A stretch of DNA of 64,000 nt from Kovacikia minuta CCNUW1 (lineage in GTDB: Bacteria; Cyanobacteriota; Cyanobacteriia; Leptolyngbyales; Leptolyngbyaceae), in NCBI RefSeq assembly GCF_020091585.1, contig NZ_CP083582.1:4722536-4786535 (forward strand), in the 5' to 3' direction. The notes beneath the pieces are model-generated. The model was not told the origin of the DNA. It was given only the letters and a program-made list of their open reading frames with translations, and did no database searches. Shown here piece by piece: positions 1 through 42,227 of this stretch. Every line of letters begins with the position of its first letter. Positions within the stretch are counted from its first letter, which is position 1. A program made the position numbers and the translations under genes.

Positions 1-270
1 TCCCGGATGGGCAGCCATCCAGAACTACCCACTCAGATTGCCAAACTGTTGAAGCACCAACGCGGCAAATGCGCTCACTGCAAATCGTACTTCAAGTCAG
101 AAGACCTTTGGGAAGTCCACCATCTGGACAAGAATCACCAAAACCACAAGTGGGATAATCTGACGTTGATCCACCAGCACTGCCACGACCAAGTTCATTC
201 AGGTATGCATGACAAGCACCCAGTTGTTGAGGAGCCGTGTGAGGTTAACGTCTCAAGCACGGTTCTGTAG
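1..270 (+). CDS. Group II intron reverse transcriptase/maturase, C-terminal HNH domain (5' partial)
   Basis: The frame is open to the left edge, so the true start lies outside the window; an in-frame ATG at 7 is just an internal methionine. The visible 87 residues carry an HNH endonuclease signature: a CAHC zinc pair, then HHLDKNHQNH, then NLTLIHQHCHDQ. In the family this DNA endonuclease domain follows the RT and X domains and helps cut the second strand of the target during retrohoming. The frame does not stop before the ribozyme core: it runs through domain V and ends at the TAG at 268-270, so the last dozen residues are encoded by ribozyme sequence. This is unusual and may mean the original stop was lost. 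Confidence 0.75.
   Translation, partial: SRMGSHPELPTQIAKLLKHQRGKCAHCKSYFKSEDLWEVHHLDKNHQNHKWDNLTLIHQHCHDQVHSGMHDKHPVVEEPCEVNVSSTVL
232..267 (+). ncRNA. Group II intron domain V
   Basis: The sequence starts GAGCCGTGTGAGG and closes CACGGTTCTG, giving the classic 34-36 nt domain V hairpin (GAGCCGTG pairing with CACGGTTC) with the catalytic AGC-type base region. Domain V is the ribozyme active-site element and the most conserved part of the intron. Confidence 0.8.
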
Positions 271-306
271 ACCAGCGGAGTGGGTGACTGCTCCGCTGAG
301 TTTAAC

Positions 307-13840: not shown

Positions 13841-14520
13841 TATGTGCTGCGAACCGGATGTCAGTGGAATGCTTTACCTCGTTGTTTAGGAGCCTCCAGT
13901 ACCGTGCATGATCGGTTTCAGTTGTGGGTTGAGCAGGGAGTGTTTGAACGCATGTGGGAATTGGGGTTGGAACAGTATGCCGAAATAGTTGGGATCGATT
14001 GGGAATGGATGGCAATGGATGGGGCGATGCTCAAAGCGCCCTTGGGGGGGAAAAGCAACGGGTGCCAATCCCACAGATAGAGGGAAGTCTGGCACTAAAC
14101 GGAGTGTCTTAAGCGATGGTAAAGGCATCCCGATTGCCATCGCCATTGAAGGAGCGAATCGCCATGACATGAAACTGACTGAGGCAACCTTAGCAGCGCA
14201 ACGAATCATTCCTTCGGACGCTGAAGTTCGCAATCTTTGTTTAGACAAAGGATATGACGATGAGGAAGTACGGGAAATTCTCAAAGCTTGGGGATAGGTG
14301 GGACATATTCCACCGCGAGATGAAGGGAAACGAATCATTCATGACATTCCCAACTACCGAGCAAGGAGATGGGTAGTAGAACGAACGCATGCATGGATGA
14401 ATCGATTTCGGCGATTGTTGATTCGTTGGGAAAAACATAAAGAAAACTATCTTGGCATGATCCACTTAGCCTGTGCATACATTGTGGTAAGGGCGATTCG
14501 GGTTTTCGGATAGGCTCTAA

Positions 14521-16446: not shown

Positions 16447-16812
16447 GCCGATGATTTTATTAGCGAGTTGCCCTACAAATACCAAACTGTATTGGGTGAG
16501 TTTGGCACCAATCTTTCTGGTGGGCAGAGGCAACGATTGGCGATCGCCCGTGCGATTGTTACCAATCCTCCCATATTAATTCTAGATGAATCCACGGGAT
16601 CGCTCGATCCAATAGCAGAAACCAAACTACTCGATCGGTTGTTGAAGAAACACCGACAGGGAAAAACGACGATTCTGATTAGTCATCGCCCAAGGGTGAT
16701 TTTGCGATCTGACTGGATTGTTCTACTTGACCAGGGAAAGTTAAAGTTGCAGGGTAGCCCAAAAGAATTATGTCAAGGTCCTGGTGAGCACCTAGATTTC
16801 TTATCTCCATAA
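16429..16812 (+). pseudogene. C-terminal fragment of an ABC exporter ATPase domain
   Basis: The frame opens after a stop at 16426 and reads [20 protein letters not shown], the ABC signature [17 protein letters not shown], Walker [14 protein letters not shown] and the H-loop [11 protein letters not shown]. This is the last 120 or so residues of the nucleotide-binding domain typical of type I secretion/peptidase ABC exporters (HlyB/C39 group). The Walker A half and the membrane domain are missing, so it cannot function alone. A TTG at 16468 could start a shorter product, but there is no reason to expect one. Confidence 0.75.
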
Positions 16813-17089: not shown

Positions 17090-19279
17090 TTACCGTGCTT
17101 TCTGCCAGGGAATCAGGACATCTTTGGCGAGCCGATGGGAGACTTCGTAGGCACCATAGCGGTTGAGGTGGCTGGGGTCTGAGAAGTAGTCGGTTTGATC
17201 GGCAAATGCCAGTCCCAGGTCACGATAGGTAAAACCAAGTTCTGTAGACAGGCGCAACATATGCTGCTGAAACTCTTCTTCGTGGCGTTTGCGAATGGGG
17301 TCAAGGTAGTCGTTGGTGAGGGGCAAATTGACGAAGACAAGGGGGATTTGATGCGCCTGGGTAAACTGAACCAACTCCAGCATGGCATCGGTTTGTTTAC
17401 CATTCAGGCTAAAGGAGTCATAGTCAGAATCGTAGTCGCCAGAAACCCTGGAGTACTTTTGATAGTAGGTGACTGGGTTAAAGCGATTGGGCAACGCCAG
17501 GAAGCCATCGCCATCGACTACGCCCCCTTCAGAGAGCACAGGTGATGCCGCATTCAGGGCGGAAGCCGCTGGACTGGTGGCATCACTCAGGTCGGTGGGT
17601 GTAATTCCCATTCCCAGGGCAAGCAGGGGATTTCCGGTGGATAGCAATACGACAAACCGATCGCGCATCAAAGATTTGAGCTGATCACGATGGGTGTAAG
17701 CCAGGGAAATGGCCCCCAAACGCTGATTCAGCTCCCGGTTCAAGATCTGGTAACTATTGGAGAGCGACGTGGGGGCTTCTTCAGTAACAGAGGTAGGTTC
17801 CTCAGATGTGCTGGTCGCCGCTGGTTTTGTTGCCTGGGCAACCACGGTAGTACCAGGAATGGGAGGTCTACCGGCAACCATTGTTCTGTAACCTTCGGAG
17901 GCAACAATTCCGTTGTAGGTGATATCGATGCGACCACTGTTAAACGCACGGGCACCATCGGCAAACAGAATCAGCTTGGGTAGTTTTTCCTGGGGCAACA
18001 TCTGACGGATGATCAGATCCACAACCTGGGCAGTTGCCCCGTTAATTCCAAAGTTGTAAACCGACACGCCCGCTGTAGCCCTGTGCTGCCAGGAAGTTTT
18101 TGAGGGCGATCGGGTCAACCCCCCGGAGTGCCCTGGAGCTACCAATTACTAATACGTCCGGTGGTCCGTACTGGGATAGATAGCGTTGATAGAGGGCAAT
18201 CTTTTCATCCAGTTGACGGCTGTTGAAGGTGGGAAAGGGGTTCGCACTGCGGGCAGAAACCAGATCAGCTTTTGCTTGCAAGGGAGAGGCTGGGAGCGTT
18301 GCAGGGGTAGCTGCAACGCCCTCATCCCCAGGATTCCCCCCCTTATTTGCAGGTAAATCCGTCAGTTCGGTTGTTCCGGGTTGGGTAAACCCCGATGGGT
18401 TGAAGGCAGATTTATCGGTCGGTTTCGTTTTCTTGAGGGATAGGGGAGGCAACTGGGGGTCAGCCGATGGACGGGCAACAGGCGCATCCGTTTCAGAGGA
18501 GGCAGCAGGCTTCGGAGAAGAAGCGGGTTGGGCGGCGGGTACAGGTGGGGGCGGGGCGGGTTGAAGTACCTGTCCCAGGAGCCATTCCGATTGCACAACC
18601 AGCAACACTCCAACGGTTCCCCAAACCAGGGCAACTCTGGCACTTCGGTGATTCACCTGTTCTGCCAGTCTGTCTGAAAACTTGACCAAACCCGGAGTCA
18701 GGTCTTCTGATTCGGATGGAATGAACAGCTGAGATCCAATCAGCGATCGCTGTACTTTCTCAATTGCACCTTCTAACCAGCGATTGAGCACCGATCGCCA
18801 GTCATTGGGCGGCAGATCTTTGTAGAGAACCAGTGCCCCTGGGGGAGCCAACAAATCCTCCACGTAGAGGTCAGAGGCAGCAAAATCGGGTGTTGCTTCC
18901 GGCACCAGGCGAGCGCGGTTGCTAACAAAATCGCTCCCATAGCTCCAGAGGGGACGTTTTTGTCCTGCCCGCCGCCCATAGACCCGAATGCCTGCTACCC
19001 CAGACACTTCCAATGGCTTCAAGAAGCGGGTGATCGACAGACCCACCTGGCTTTGTTGGGGGCAGGTCGGCGCTTCGGTCATAATGTGCAACAAGTCTGC
19101 TCTTTTGCGAACCTGAACCCGAATGCCACCCGTTGCTAAGGTTTGTTCCAAATCCGGATTCAGTAGCCGGGTCAACAAAAACTCGATCGCCTCCAAACTT
19201 CCCTTCTGAGCCAACTCCAGCGTCGTCAACGCCAGCATCGATTGTGTTTTTGCTGGCAGGTTGAGCCAGTGAACCCAGG

Positions 19280-19405
19280 AGGGGGAGTGGGGAGTGGGGT
19301 GTGGGGTGTGGGGAGGATTTTGAATTTTGAATTTTGAATTTTGAATTGAATCTGATTCCTGACTCCTGGCTTCTGGCTTCTGGCTTCTGCCCTCTGATTC
19401 CTGGC
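19280..19405. repeat. Composite heptamer cassette inside the DUF1574 gene (1)
   Basis: Three blocks run in order: GGGGAGT/GGGGTGT units, TTTTGAA units (four), then CTTCTGG-like units. All have a 7-bp period. The cassette is read in frame on the minus strand, giving peptides like NSKFKIQNPPHTPHPTPH. Known as STRR-type repeats in cyanobacteria. Confidence 0.85.
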
Positions 19406-19832
19406 TGCCAACGCCATAAATCGTCACCGCCTGAATTCCCCTGGGTGCGAGGAATTCCAGGGTTGGGGCCAGGGTCGTGATTGCCGTTCGTTTGTCCGGC
19501 ACCGTGGATTGAATTCCCTGACAGGTCAGGTGCAACGTCACATCCTTCAAAATGGCAGAAACCTGCATTTCCGCCGAACTCAATAATCGATTCAGCAAGC
19601 GGGTGATCGCCTGCACATCTCCCCAGTGTGCCCACTGCTTCAAAATATCGCTGGTTGGAGTCAGGTCTACCCGCAGCAGCCATTCCCGTCTTGCCTCCCC
19701 CCGCACCTGCCCACAAACGATCGCATCACGAAACCCCTGTAGCTCCAATTCTCGCAACCGCTGGGCGATCGGTTCCGCCAGCATCAGCGGATCGGGGCTG
19801 TAGGCAGATTCACAAACGACGAAGAGGCGGTA

Positions 19833-19983
19833 AGAGGGTGTGGGGTGTGGGGTGTGGGGTGTGGGGTGAAGAGAATTTTGAGTTTTAAGTTTTGAGTTTT
19901 GAGTTACTTCTGACTCCTGGCTTCTGACTTCTGGCTTTTCCCCTGACCCCTGACCCCTAACCCCTGACCCCTGCTCTTCTGCC
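19833..19983. repeat. Composite heptamer cassette inside the DUF1574 gene (2)
   Basis: GGGGTGT units, then GAGTTTT units, then TGACTCCTGGCTTCTGACTT and CCCCTGA units. Same order and period as the first cassette in this gene. Read in frame without stops on the minus strand. Confidence 0.85.
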
Positions 19984-20644
19984 TTCTCAATCTCCTCTAC
20001 CCTGGCTCGAACTGCGATTCCTAAATCACTGAAAACGCTGCTTAAATAGCGGGCGATCGCATCCGGCTGCCCCAGACGGGCCAGTTGCAGCGTTGGAACA
20101 ATGGAAGTGGTCGGGTTTCCTTCCAGGGAAGTAGTCGGAGCCGCAGCCACAGGTTGCTTGCTCCCAGAAGATGCCCGCTCCGGTTCAGGTGGAACAGATA
20201 CGGGGGACTGATTCAGGTAAAGGGACTCGGTCCAGTTCGGGGTTTTCTGGCTAATTTGCCGACCGTAGACGACAACCCGATAGATGGGAGGAGTATCGGA
20301 GGGAAGCAGCCGATCGAGGGGAGCCGCCACAAATGCTTGGCTTAACCCTGACACCACCTGGGCACGGTCAGGGCAGGGCATGCTCTCGACCAAAATATGC
20401 AGGGTATTTCCCCGCACCTGGCTTTTCACTCTTCCTTGCTCAAGCCCAGTGTTGCGATGAATCCACCGGTTCAGGGAATCATCGTTCATCTTCTGAGGTG
20501 GGATTCCACCTTTAGAAGAATGGGTTTGTCCATGTAGATCCGACATGAGAGCCTTGACACCTAATGTCTAAATTCAGACGATACAATTCAAAATGACGAG
20601 TCTGCTCGGTTTTGATTACGGTAGAGGGTTGAGTGGGACGATAT

Positions 20645-40428: not shown

Positions 40429-40849
40429 GCCAATCCCATTAAGCCAGGGGAGAAAGCCGAGTACAAACCCTTCGAGACCAATTATCAGCCAATTTTGCAT
40501 CAGCCCTTAATTTCTATCTATCCTGAACCAAGCCTCATTTATTCCATCACCTTGACTCATGCGATTACTCTGCCTTAGCAATGGTCACGGCGAAGACGCG
40601 ATCGCCCTCCGCATCCTGCACGCCCTCCAACAGCAACCCAATGCCCCATCGATCGAAGCATTGCCGATCGTCGGTGAAGGTCACGCCTATACCCACGCCA
40701 AGATTCCCCTCATCGGTTCCGTCAAAACCATGCCCTCCGGTGGCTTCATCTACATGGATGGGAAGCAATTGGCACGGGATATTGGGGGAGGGTTAGTGCA
40801 GTTGACACTGGCGCAGTTAAAGGCAATTCAGGATTGGGCAAGAGATGCG

Positions 40850-41060
40850 GAAGGCAGAGGGCAGGGGGCAGAGGGCAGAAGGGAAGAGGGGGAGGTAGGG
40901 GAGGTGAGGAAGAGGGGGGAGAAAATCCATACCCCACACCCCACACCCCACACCCCACACCCCACACCCCACACCCCACACCCCACACCCCATTTCAAAA
41001 CTTAAAACTCAAAACTCAAAACTCTCCCCCCTCCCCCCCTCCCCTCCCCCATCCCTCATC
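40850..41060. repeat. Composite heptamer cassette 1 in the LpxB-related gene
   Basis: Purine units (GGCAGAG/GGGAGGT types), then nine ACCCCAC-type units (40931-40993, the last one ACCCCAT), then AAACTCA units, then CCCCTCC-type pyrimidine units. A TAA at 41003 stops frame 1, while the frame needed downstream is open throughout the array. Confidence 0.9.
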
Positions 41061-41364
41061 CTCGCCGTTGGCGACATCGTTCCCCTCCTATTCGCCTGGC
41101 TCAGTGGAGTGCCCTACGCCTTTGTCGGAACCGCAAAATCGGAATACTACCTGCGGGATGAAGCGGGATGGTTACCGCGTGACTCGTGGTGGAGCGATCG
41201 CCTGGAACGCTGGACGGGTTGTGTCTATCACCCCTGGGAACGCTGGCTCATGAGCCGCCCCAACTGCAAAGCTGTTTTCCCCAGAGACAGCCTCACCGCA
41301 AAGGTTTTGAGACAATACGGCATTCCCGCATTTGACCTCGGCAATCCGATGATGGATGGGCTGG

Positions 41365-41545
41365 AGGGGAGGGATGGGGGATGGGGGATGGGGGATGAAA
41401 AGGAGGCAGAAAGCAGAAGGCAGAAGGCAGAAGAAGACGCGGAGACGCGGGGATATGGGGACGTGGAGAATTCAAAATTAACTCAAAACTCAAAACTCAA
41501 AACTCAAAACTCTCCCTCCTCCATCCCCCCTCCTTCCTCCCTCCG
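41365..41545. repeat. Composite heptamer cassette 2 in the LpxB-related gene
   Basis: ATGGGGG units, GGCAGAA units, a short GACGCGG repeat, four full AACTCAA units (41480-41507), then CTCCCTC pyrimidine units. Same block order as cassette 1. The upstream frame reads through without a stop. Confidence 0.9.
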
Positions 41546-42227
41546 CCCTCTCGATCGCCCTTCTCCCCGGTTCCCGTCCACCGGAGGCTTACGCCAACTG
41601 GGAGACAATTTTGTTGGCGGTAAATGGGTTGATCGCAAATCTGGGACGTCCGTTGGAGTTGCTGGCGGCGATCGCTCCCACGCTGGAGATCGAAGTGCTC
41701 CGGCAAACGCTGTTGGGATTTCGCTGGCAGCAGGTTTCAGAAACGACCTACTCCGTGGGACTAGGAGAAAAACAAGCAAGGCTGGAACTGGCCCCCAATC
41801 GCTTTGTGGAGTTTGTGCAGCGGGCAGATGTGGCGATCGCCATGACCGGAACGGGCACTGAACAGTTTGTGGGCTTGGGTAAGCCTGTGATTACGATTCC
41901 TGGTAAAGGACCCCAATTTACCCCTGCTTTTGCCGAAGCACAGACGCGTCTATTGGGTCCGTCCGTGACCGTCGTTGCAGAACCTGCCCAGGTTGCAGGC
42001 GCGATTCAATCCCTATTCAATCATCCCGATCGGCTCCAGTTAATTGCCGAAAATGGTCGTCGTCGTTTGGGAAAACCAGGGGCAGCCGATCGAATTGCAC
42101 AATGCTTGGTAAATCTAACCCACCCTCACCCTTCAAATAGGATTGCATAACTGCTTCAACTTTAGCTTTAGCGAATACAATATCGGCAAGTCAGTCAAGC
42201 TGGGAGCATCTGGGTGCCAGTCCTGAT

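Follow-up and report, generated by a model that had tools for sequence, protein, structure and literature searches.

The window analysed here comprises 64,000 nucleotides of the Kovacikia minuta CCNUW1 genome (contig NZ_CP083582.1, positions 4,722,536 to 4,786,535) and carries on its minus strand a gene divided between two overlapping open reading frames (ORFs), termed ORF N and ORF C, which lie in different frames. ORF N contains two cassettes of tandem heptanucleotide repeats that are read in frame (Table 1). The cassettes are probably copies of a spreading tandem-repeat DNA, filtered by selection to those that are stop-free, in frame and sited in loops; in this gene they would be translated into loops without a function. 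Several other explanations are weighed below, and the likelihoods that we assign to them overlap in part.

With the caveat that the cassettes are mosaics of several heptamers, their units on the coding strand are CAGGGGT-like, CCAGAAG-like, CTCAAAA and CACACCC in cassette 1, and GCCAGAA-like, TTCAAAA and CACACCC/CACTCCC in cassette 2. Common to both is the order of units, in which CAGGGGT and/or the CCAGAAG-like unit is followed by (C/T)TCAAAA and then by CACACCC. Tandem Repeats Finder reported seven rows between positions 19278 and 19973, with scores of 53-66. An array of heptamers encodes the same peptide in all three frames, and whether it is open or closed depends on the strand: the units of both cassettes are stop-free in all three frames of the coding strand, and the (C/T)TCAAAA unit has a stop in every frame of the opposite strand. 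The original prediction, which was made from the sequence of the window, described two stop-free in-frame cassettes of 51 and about 42 codons; both are indeed read through, and they measure about 48 and 40 codons in our analysis. As to its further claim, that keeping the frame needs matched unit counts, it is the total inserted length that has to match modulo 3, the peptide of the array itself being independent of the frame.

Table 1. Features of the gene with two heptamer cassettes and of a second cassette-bearing gene, in coordinates of the window.
Feature	Position	Strand	Remarks
ORF N	18042..20546	minus	834 aa; N-terminal two thirds of the gene; Ser motif at its end
ORF C	17090..18145	minus	351 aa; C-terminal SGNH/GDSL-like part
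Cassette 1	19833..19974	minus	lag-7 periodic; residues 191-238 of ORF N, about 48 codons
Cassette 2	19280..19397	minus	lag-7 periodic; residues 384-423 of ORF N, about 40 codons
GSSRALRG, presumed Ser motif of the SGNH-like domain	18120..18143	minus	end of ORF N
DPSH, presumed Asp-His motif of the SGNH-like domain	17168..17179	minus	ORF C; invariant in 13/13 aligned sequences
One-base frame change ORF N/ORF C	18068..18073	minus	orthologs run through in one frame
Lipid-A-disaccharide-synthase-related gene (TIGR03492)	40559-42150	plus	three frames; cassettes at about 40850-41060 and 41366-41550

To place the cassettes in the protein, we compared the gene with its orthologs. A protein search for the C-terminal part matched 61 of 77 genomes, the own genome counted, and regions were fetched from 40 of the 60 other matching genomes; in the 20 genomes that were not fetched, the best match lies in a frame of at least 976 aa in 14 and of 378-861 aa in 6. 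In the alignment, cassette 1 occupies a variable stretch between AVRAR and RLFVVCES, which has 101 residues here against 53-85 in the 40 orthologs, and cassette 2 a variable stretch between IYG and WVHWL, with 86 residues against 49-73. The cassettes are thus extra sequence in variable linkers, as had been proposed. An AlphaFold model of ORF N built with 11 sequences (mean predicted local distance difference test score, pLDDT, of 60.9, with confident domains) places cassette 1 between the strands 178-186 and 238-247, with pLDDT below 50 at residues 189-234, and cassette 2 between the strands 373-379 and 424-429, with pLDDT below 50 at residues 384-418; both low-scoring stretches connect strands of confident domains. 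The model shows repeated alpha/beta domains, and its single Foldseek match at E<=0.001 was a model of FliF (E 2.7e-4, TM 0.08-0.11), followed by GerM and further FliF entries, a weak resemblance and a mere lead. The model of ORF C was of low confidence (mean pLDDT 48.4) and was dropped from further use, and alignment of the C-terminal part against the PDB gave no sequence match.

The best lag-7 identity over 21 bp was 0.52-0.67 in 35 of the 40 orthologs and 0.90-1.00 in the other five. These five (L041, L043, L044, L046 and L047), all of one other genus, g4, carry an array of CCCCACT or CCCCACA in frame in loop 1, the loop of cassette 1; by the same measure there was no loop-1 array in L042 and L045, the other g4 loci fetched, or in the remaining 33 orthologs. 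Since lag-7 identity is low in 35 of the 40 orthologs and high only in the five with arrays, the arrays exceed what chance would give, and loop 1 is a recurrent site for heptamer arrays. Linkers unrelated to repeats, which had been named as a possible counterargument, do exist among the orthologs; those of the window gene, however, exceed all others compared in length, and loop 1 recurs as a site of such arrays.

The repeats recur across the genome. A pattern search with three TTTTGAR units found 296 overlapping places, the first 100 of which (C1:1-3.31 Mb, about 39% of the genome) correspond to 57 (YTCAAAA)n arrays that we fetched with their flanks; the control with the pattern read backwards was not clean, as its hits (551 vs 296) were mostly the same kind of tract. 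An array was taken to lie inside a frame when an open frame on the CAAAA strand extended over at least 90 codons before it and at least 80 after it, a rule that misses short-sided cases such as L113 (51 codons before), which was not counted; by eye, ABC-type sequence flanks the latter array on both sides. By this rule, 30 of the 57 sampled arrays lie inside one open frame, in 27 ORFs. A Pfam family was matched (E<=0.001) by 25 of the 27 host ORFs, all except L115 and L109:2229-3746, and the matched hosts include DnaG primase, transcription-repair coupling factor and CobN/Mg-chelatase, as well as an SbcC-like AAA protein, a penicillin-binding protein, histidine kinases and ABC ATPases. As read from the match tables, Pfam matches flank a cassette on both sides, or enclose it, in 16 of the 27 ORFs. 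Coding calls from codon usage at the sides of the arrays were too weak (with a fixed threshold, 11 INFRAME and 2 FRAME DIFFERS of 57), and open frames and Pfam matches were used instead. Of the 33 sampled genic arrays, 30 keep the frame, against one third expected if the frame were irrelevant (p 8e-12); 30/33 is an upper figure, as out-of-frame copies are harder to recognise and their true share is probably above 3/33. Counted by ORF, 27 of 30 are in frame against the same expectation (p 2e-10).

These counts bear on the suggestion of the original prediction that the gene could vary in frame. In a phase-variable contingency gene, slippage of the heptamers would shift the frame and thereby switch expression of the SGNH-like domain at the C-terminus. 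Short perfect arrays are in principle prone to slippage, and a few genes are indeed out of frame at their cassettes. Three sampled arrays lie at frame changes (L112, L127 and L132, on C1 near 1.07, 2.29 and 2.63 Mb): in L112, a histidine kinase, HisKA is in one frame and HATPase_c in another; in the ABC exporter-like L127, ABC_membrane is followed by ABC_tran in a frame changed at the cassette; and in L132, DHH-CBS-PolyA_pol is followed by an ORF without a Pfam match and with coding-like codon use. Within the window, the TIGR03492 gene has a cassette at each of its frame changes, and its frames match pieces 1-94, 115-197 and 237-394 of the family model, each alone being under the family cut-off, which is intended for the whole protein. 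Where a gene is broken at its cassettes, as the TIGR03492 gene is, a switch role is conceivable. For the gene with the two cassettes the suggestion finds no support: both cassettes and the five arrays of genus g4 in the same loop are in frame, as are 30 of the 33 sampled genic arrays, and the sole break of the gene lies off the arrays. Moreover, hosts that are expected to be essential, such as CobN/Mg-chelatase and DnaG, are poor candidates for a switch. We therefore regard phase variation as an unlikely explanation of the cassettes.

The break itself had been predicted near 18068-18073, away from the arrays and parting the Ser motif from the Asp-His motif, and it was confirmed at that place. 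GSSRALRG, which we take to be the SGNH Ser motif, and DPSH, presumably the SGNH Asp-His motif, are split in the window gene, whereas all 12 orthologous chains compared have GSSRA(L/M)RG and DPSH in a common frame. Across the 40 orthologs, similarity to ORF N ends at residues 819-834 (mode 826, nt 18069), and similarity to ORF C begins at residues 25-27 (about nt 18070) in 33 and at residues 9-29 in the other 7, which puts the frame change at about 18069-18071. In all 40 of 40 fetched orthologs the N- and C-terminal parts form one open frame of 996-1279 residues that spans the position of the break, and all 12 named loci keep the junction in a single frame; these loci come partly from the same genomes, and one of them, L089, is cut by the end of its sequence stretch. 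Three of the 12 (L086, L087 and L088) are broken elsewhere, in the N-terminal part, and all three are metagenome assemblies with a coverage of 1.8-3.4 according to the record titles. Hence a break at this junction is seen in the window gene only, and breaks elsewhere in the gene are seen in weak assemblies. The best explanation of the break near 18070 is an event unrelated to the cassettes, either a recent mutation or an indel of the assembly.

It is very improbable that the arrays, too, are errors of sequencing or assembly. The break is a single base, three of the 12 named orthologous loci are broken at other places in low-coverage metagenome assemblies, and in a codon-usage frameshift scan of the window and 48 stretches of the same genome, 270 kb with 274 gene calls contained 9 frame changes, which is compatible with some indel errors; the rate is a lower bound, because the scan missed the break of this gene and L127. 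Four of the nine frame changes are at or near heptamer cassettes (window 41526, L109, L112 and L132). Set against this, the arrays keep the frame in many genes and recur in other genome assemblies, so that an artefact could account for the break alone.

The family assignment of the gene should be read with care. For ORF N there was no match in NCBIfam, nor in Pfam at E<=0.001. ORF C matched DUF1574 (PF07611) with E 2.3e-4 and 21.1 bits, under the cut-off of 29.1, and Lipase_GDSL_2 with E 5.3e-4, likewise under the curated cut-off. Four orthologs scored 31.2, 17.0, 24.1 and 29.0 bits against DUF1574, so that one of the four passes the cut-off, and the DUF1574 label appears borderline for this gene.

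The type of the unit is related to the location of the array. TTCAAAA-only arrays lie in genes in 22 of 22 cases (the out-of-frame L112 and L132 included), CTCAAAA-only arrays in 6 of 21, with 15 of 21 outside genes (Fisher p 3.6e-7), and mixed TTCAAAA/CTCAAAA arrays in 5 of 14. By eye, the CTCAAAA arrays of L137 and L111 stop a few bases before apparent start codons, possibly in a 5' untranslated position. Three TTCAAAA units are present in 16 of 115 genomes, the own genome counted, and absent from 99; overlapping hits number 133 in this genome and 98 in the genome G008, and the backward control in this genome gave 41 hits vs 133, on a related heptamer. In G013, a genome of another genus in one contig, open frames are spanned by 13 of the 14 TTCAAAA-only arrays, by both mixed ones and by 5 of the 10 CTCAAAA-only ones (Fisher p 0.05 for the first group against the last). 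In G008, 7 of 8 arrays span frames in a first sample and 3 of 7, with two cut by a contig edge, in a second. For G035 the figures are 1 of 3 TTCAAAA-only and 2 of 10 CTCAAAA-only arrays, and for G076 0 of 5 arrays. The preference for coding sites is strong in this genome and in G013, fair in G008, and not universal.

A preference of this kind may indicate that the QNSKFKI/PTPHTPHP peptide is useful, for instance as a spacer or in an interaction, and that a coding-specialised repeat subfamily is kept by positive selection, which would partly overlap the explanation by spreading and filtering. The excess of TTCAAAA-only over CTCAAAA-only arrays in genes, both here and in G013, speaks for it; furthermore, by our own estimate (85% coding assumed), random insertion followed by the loss of harmful copies would leave about half of the arrays outside genes. 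Even so, we consider a selected module rather unlikely, for most orthologs have unrelated sequence in the same loops, the host genes have no evident function in common, and the arrays of G076 and the TTCAAAA-only arrays of G035 mostly do not span open frames. A bolder proposal, which we put forward only tentatively, is that of a coding-specialised heptamer element: a TTCAAAA array, alone or in an ordered composite, would spread or persist in some lineages almost only at sense, in-frame, translated sites, perhaps by a route linked to transcription or RNA; it would add loops of the QNSKFKI type to many cyanobacterial proteins and act as a continuing source of new protein segments.

The units around the arrays follow an order. 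It was examined on the CAAAA strand, within 170 bp, for 35 genic arrays (the 33 sampled ones and the two of this gene). GGCAGAR lies 5' of the array in 20 and 3' in 2, and the 5':3' counts are 18:1 for CAGRAGY, 17:0 for the GGGGACAC-like module and 2:20 for the CCCCACM-like module (p 1e-5 to 1e-4 for these four modules, which were picked after the sequences had been read); for a CTCAGTC-like module (8:3) the order was not significant in these arrays. In short, purine-rich modules stand 5' and a C-rich module 3' of the array. The 24 other arrays show the same lean in smaller numbers (8:1, 3:0 and 3:8), except for CAGRAGY (2:2), so that the order is not merely a coding effect. The left flanks are G-richer and the right flanks C-richer, but a palindrome or hairpin was rejected as a general property of the cassettes: the two arms of a cassette matched each other no more closely than swapped arms did (mean -48.4 vs -47.8 in the 35 genic arrays, 2 of which ranked in the best 5% of swaps), and shuffled sequences folded just as stably (mean z -0.11, below -2 in 2 of 35).

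The shared order also bears on a purely local origin, in which every linker would have started as a heptamer present by chance and lengthened through slippage, without any exchange among loci. There is little long exact identity between cassettes, and the arrays of G013 and G008 are mostly short TTCAAAA runs without the composite, as such an origin would have it. Nevertheless, the same few units occur in the same order in unrelated genes, and three TTCAAAA units, absent from 99 of the 115 genomes, abound here and in G008, which makes a purely local origin quite unlikely.

The same loops are occupied in other genera as well. In the DnaG and AIR-synthase-like genes (the latter presumably ThiL-like), orthologs align on both sides of the cassette. 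The DnaG loop measures 86 residues here, and its length ranges from 48 to 91 in 29 others; L186 (from G013) has a perfect lag-7 array there, and L187 and L185 are more weakly periodic. At the site in the AIR-synthase-like gene, the heptamer cassettes of two g4 species (L168 and L169) differ from the one here, and the peptide of L170 is related. In an ABC ATPase (L119), the loop numbers 61 residues here; G015 has one of 59 residues that lacks periodicity, and the range in the remaining 15 aligned segments is 29-41. This pattern fits gain, turnover and decay at permissive loops.

From these results, a hypothesis regarding the origin of the cassettes may be put forward. A family of composite heptamer tandem repeats would have spread through the genome, probably by copying between repeat tracts, with many copies inserted inside genes. 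A copy in the sense orientation would be translatable in any phase, as the cassette units are stop-free in all three coding-strand frames, and selection would retain those copies that preserve the downstream frame by their total length and are sited in a loop. Both cassettes of this gene sit in loops that join predicted strands of the N-terminal repeated domain, where their product is expected to be disordered, rich in Pro, His, Ser, Gln and Asn, and without a switch role. Slippage may alter the number of units, and decay by substitution may later leave ordinary hydrophilic linkers.

Several observations weigh against this hypothesis. L109:2229-3746, although counted as in frame, is doubtful, with a possible frameshift just upstream and no Pfam match. 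A search for signs of whole-cassette copying among 1711 pairs of flanked arrays (pairs from the same locus skipped) gave one non-tandem exact match of at least 22 nt and no other, the cassettes sharing vocabulary and order and hardly any long identical stretches. No genome of the same genus was found among the relatives, and hence no empty site at the DNA level. Three sampled genes and one gene of the window are out of frame, which an on/off role could also explain. Among 35 arrays of 14 genomes, the second G008 sample included, open frames extend across 17, a contig edge interrupts 4, and the other 14 are not spanned. Finally, the DnaG loop is longer than here in two orthologs (91 and 87 residues). 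Even with these points taken into account, spread followed by filtering is the explanation that we prefer.

A few further features of the window were noticed in passing. On the plus strand, transposase-like ORFs in overlapping frames were noticed by eye at 13844-14513, together with a 114-aa ORF at 16468-16812 that resembles the C-terminal end of an ABC ATPase and is perhaps a gene remnant; a group II intron at 230-306 (plus strand), near the start of the window, was the sole Rfam match.

The best-known cases of repeats inserted in frame into core genes are probably those of Rickettsia and its relatives, and the usual explanation is relaxed selection in small genomes. Here a cyanobacterium with a genome of 8.6 Mb has in-frame inserts in enzymes of replication, repair and the chelatase type, and the corresponding loops hold different inserts in other genera. 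This makes it testable how proteins tolerate, and later absorb, segments derived from repeats. It is also a warning that sequencing noise is probably not the source of heptamer linkers in such gene models, and that a few genes are broken at them. In the literature searched by title and opening of the abstract, with few subscription papers covered, we found none on in-frame heptamers in cyanobacterial proteins, and a literature search found no paper that deals with DUF1574 together with cyanobacteria.

The cassettes resemble several known systems in part. Short tandemly repeated repetitive (STRR) heptamers of filamentous cyanobacteria were reportedly described by Mazel et al. in 1990, and Vioque is said to have found one inside the RNase P RNA gene in 1997; STRRs are described as intergenic or from RNA genes. 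The cassettes share with them the tandem heptanucleotide units dispersed in a cyanobacterial genome, but, unlike STRRs as so described, many lie in frame in protein genes and are ordered composites. With phase-variable contingency loci they have in common coding-sequence tandem repeats whose unit length is not divisible by three, and they differ in that the frame is kept in 30 of 33 sampled arrays. Rickettsia palindromic elements (RPEs) of about 105-150 bp lie in frame in unrelated conserved genes and are translated as an extra peptide (PMC10969869, PMC2229807). Like RPEs, the cassettes are inserted in frame in unrelated protein genes. In contrast to RPEs, which are palindromic with predicted long stem-loops, they have neither matched arms nor stronger folding, and they are mosaics of tandem heptamers in cyanobacteria. 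The G-rich heptamers of Nostoc, GGGGA(C/T)T, and of Xanthomonas, GGGAATC, are dispersed, variable in unit number and reportedly under-represented in coding regions, with intragenic shares of 11% and 7% in two Xanthomonas (PMC4692102). The arrays of K. minuta are likewise dispersed and of variable unit number, yet 30 of the 57 sampled arrays lie inside open frames.

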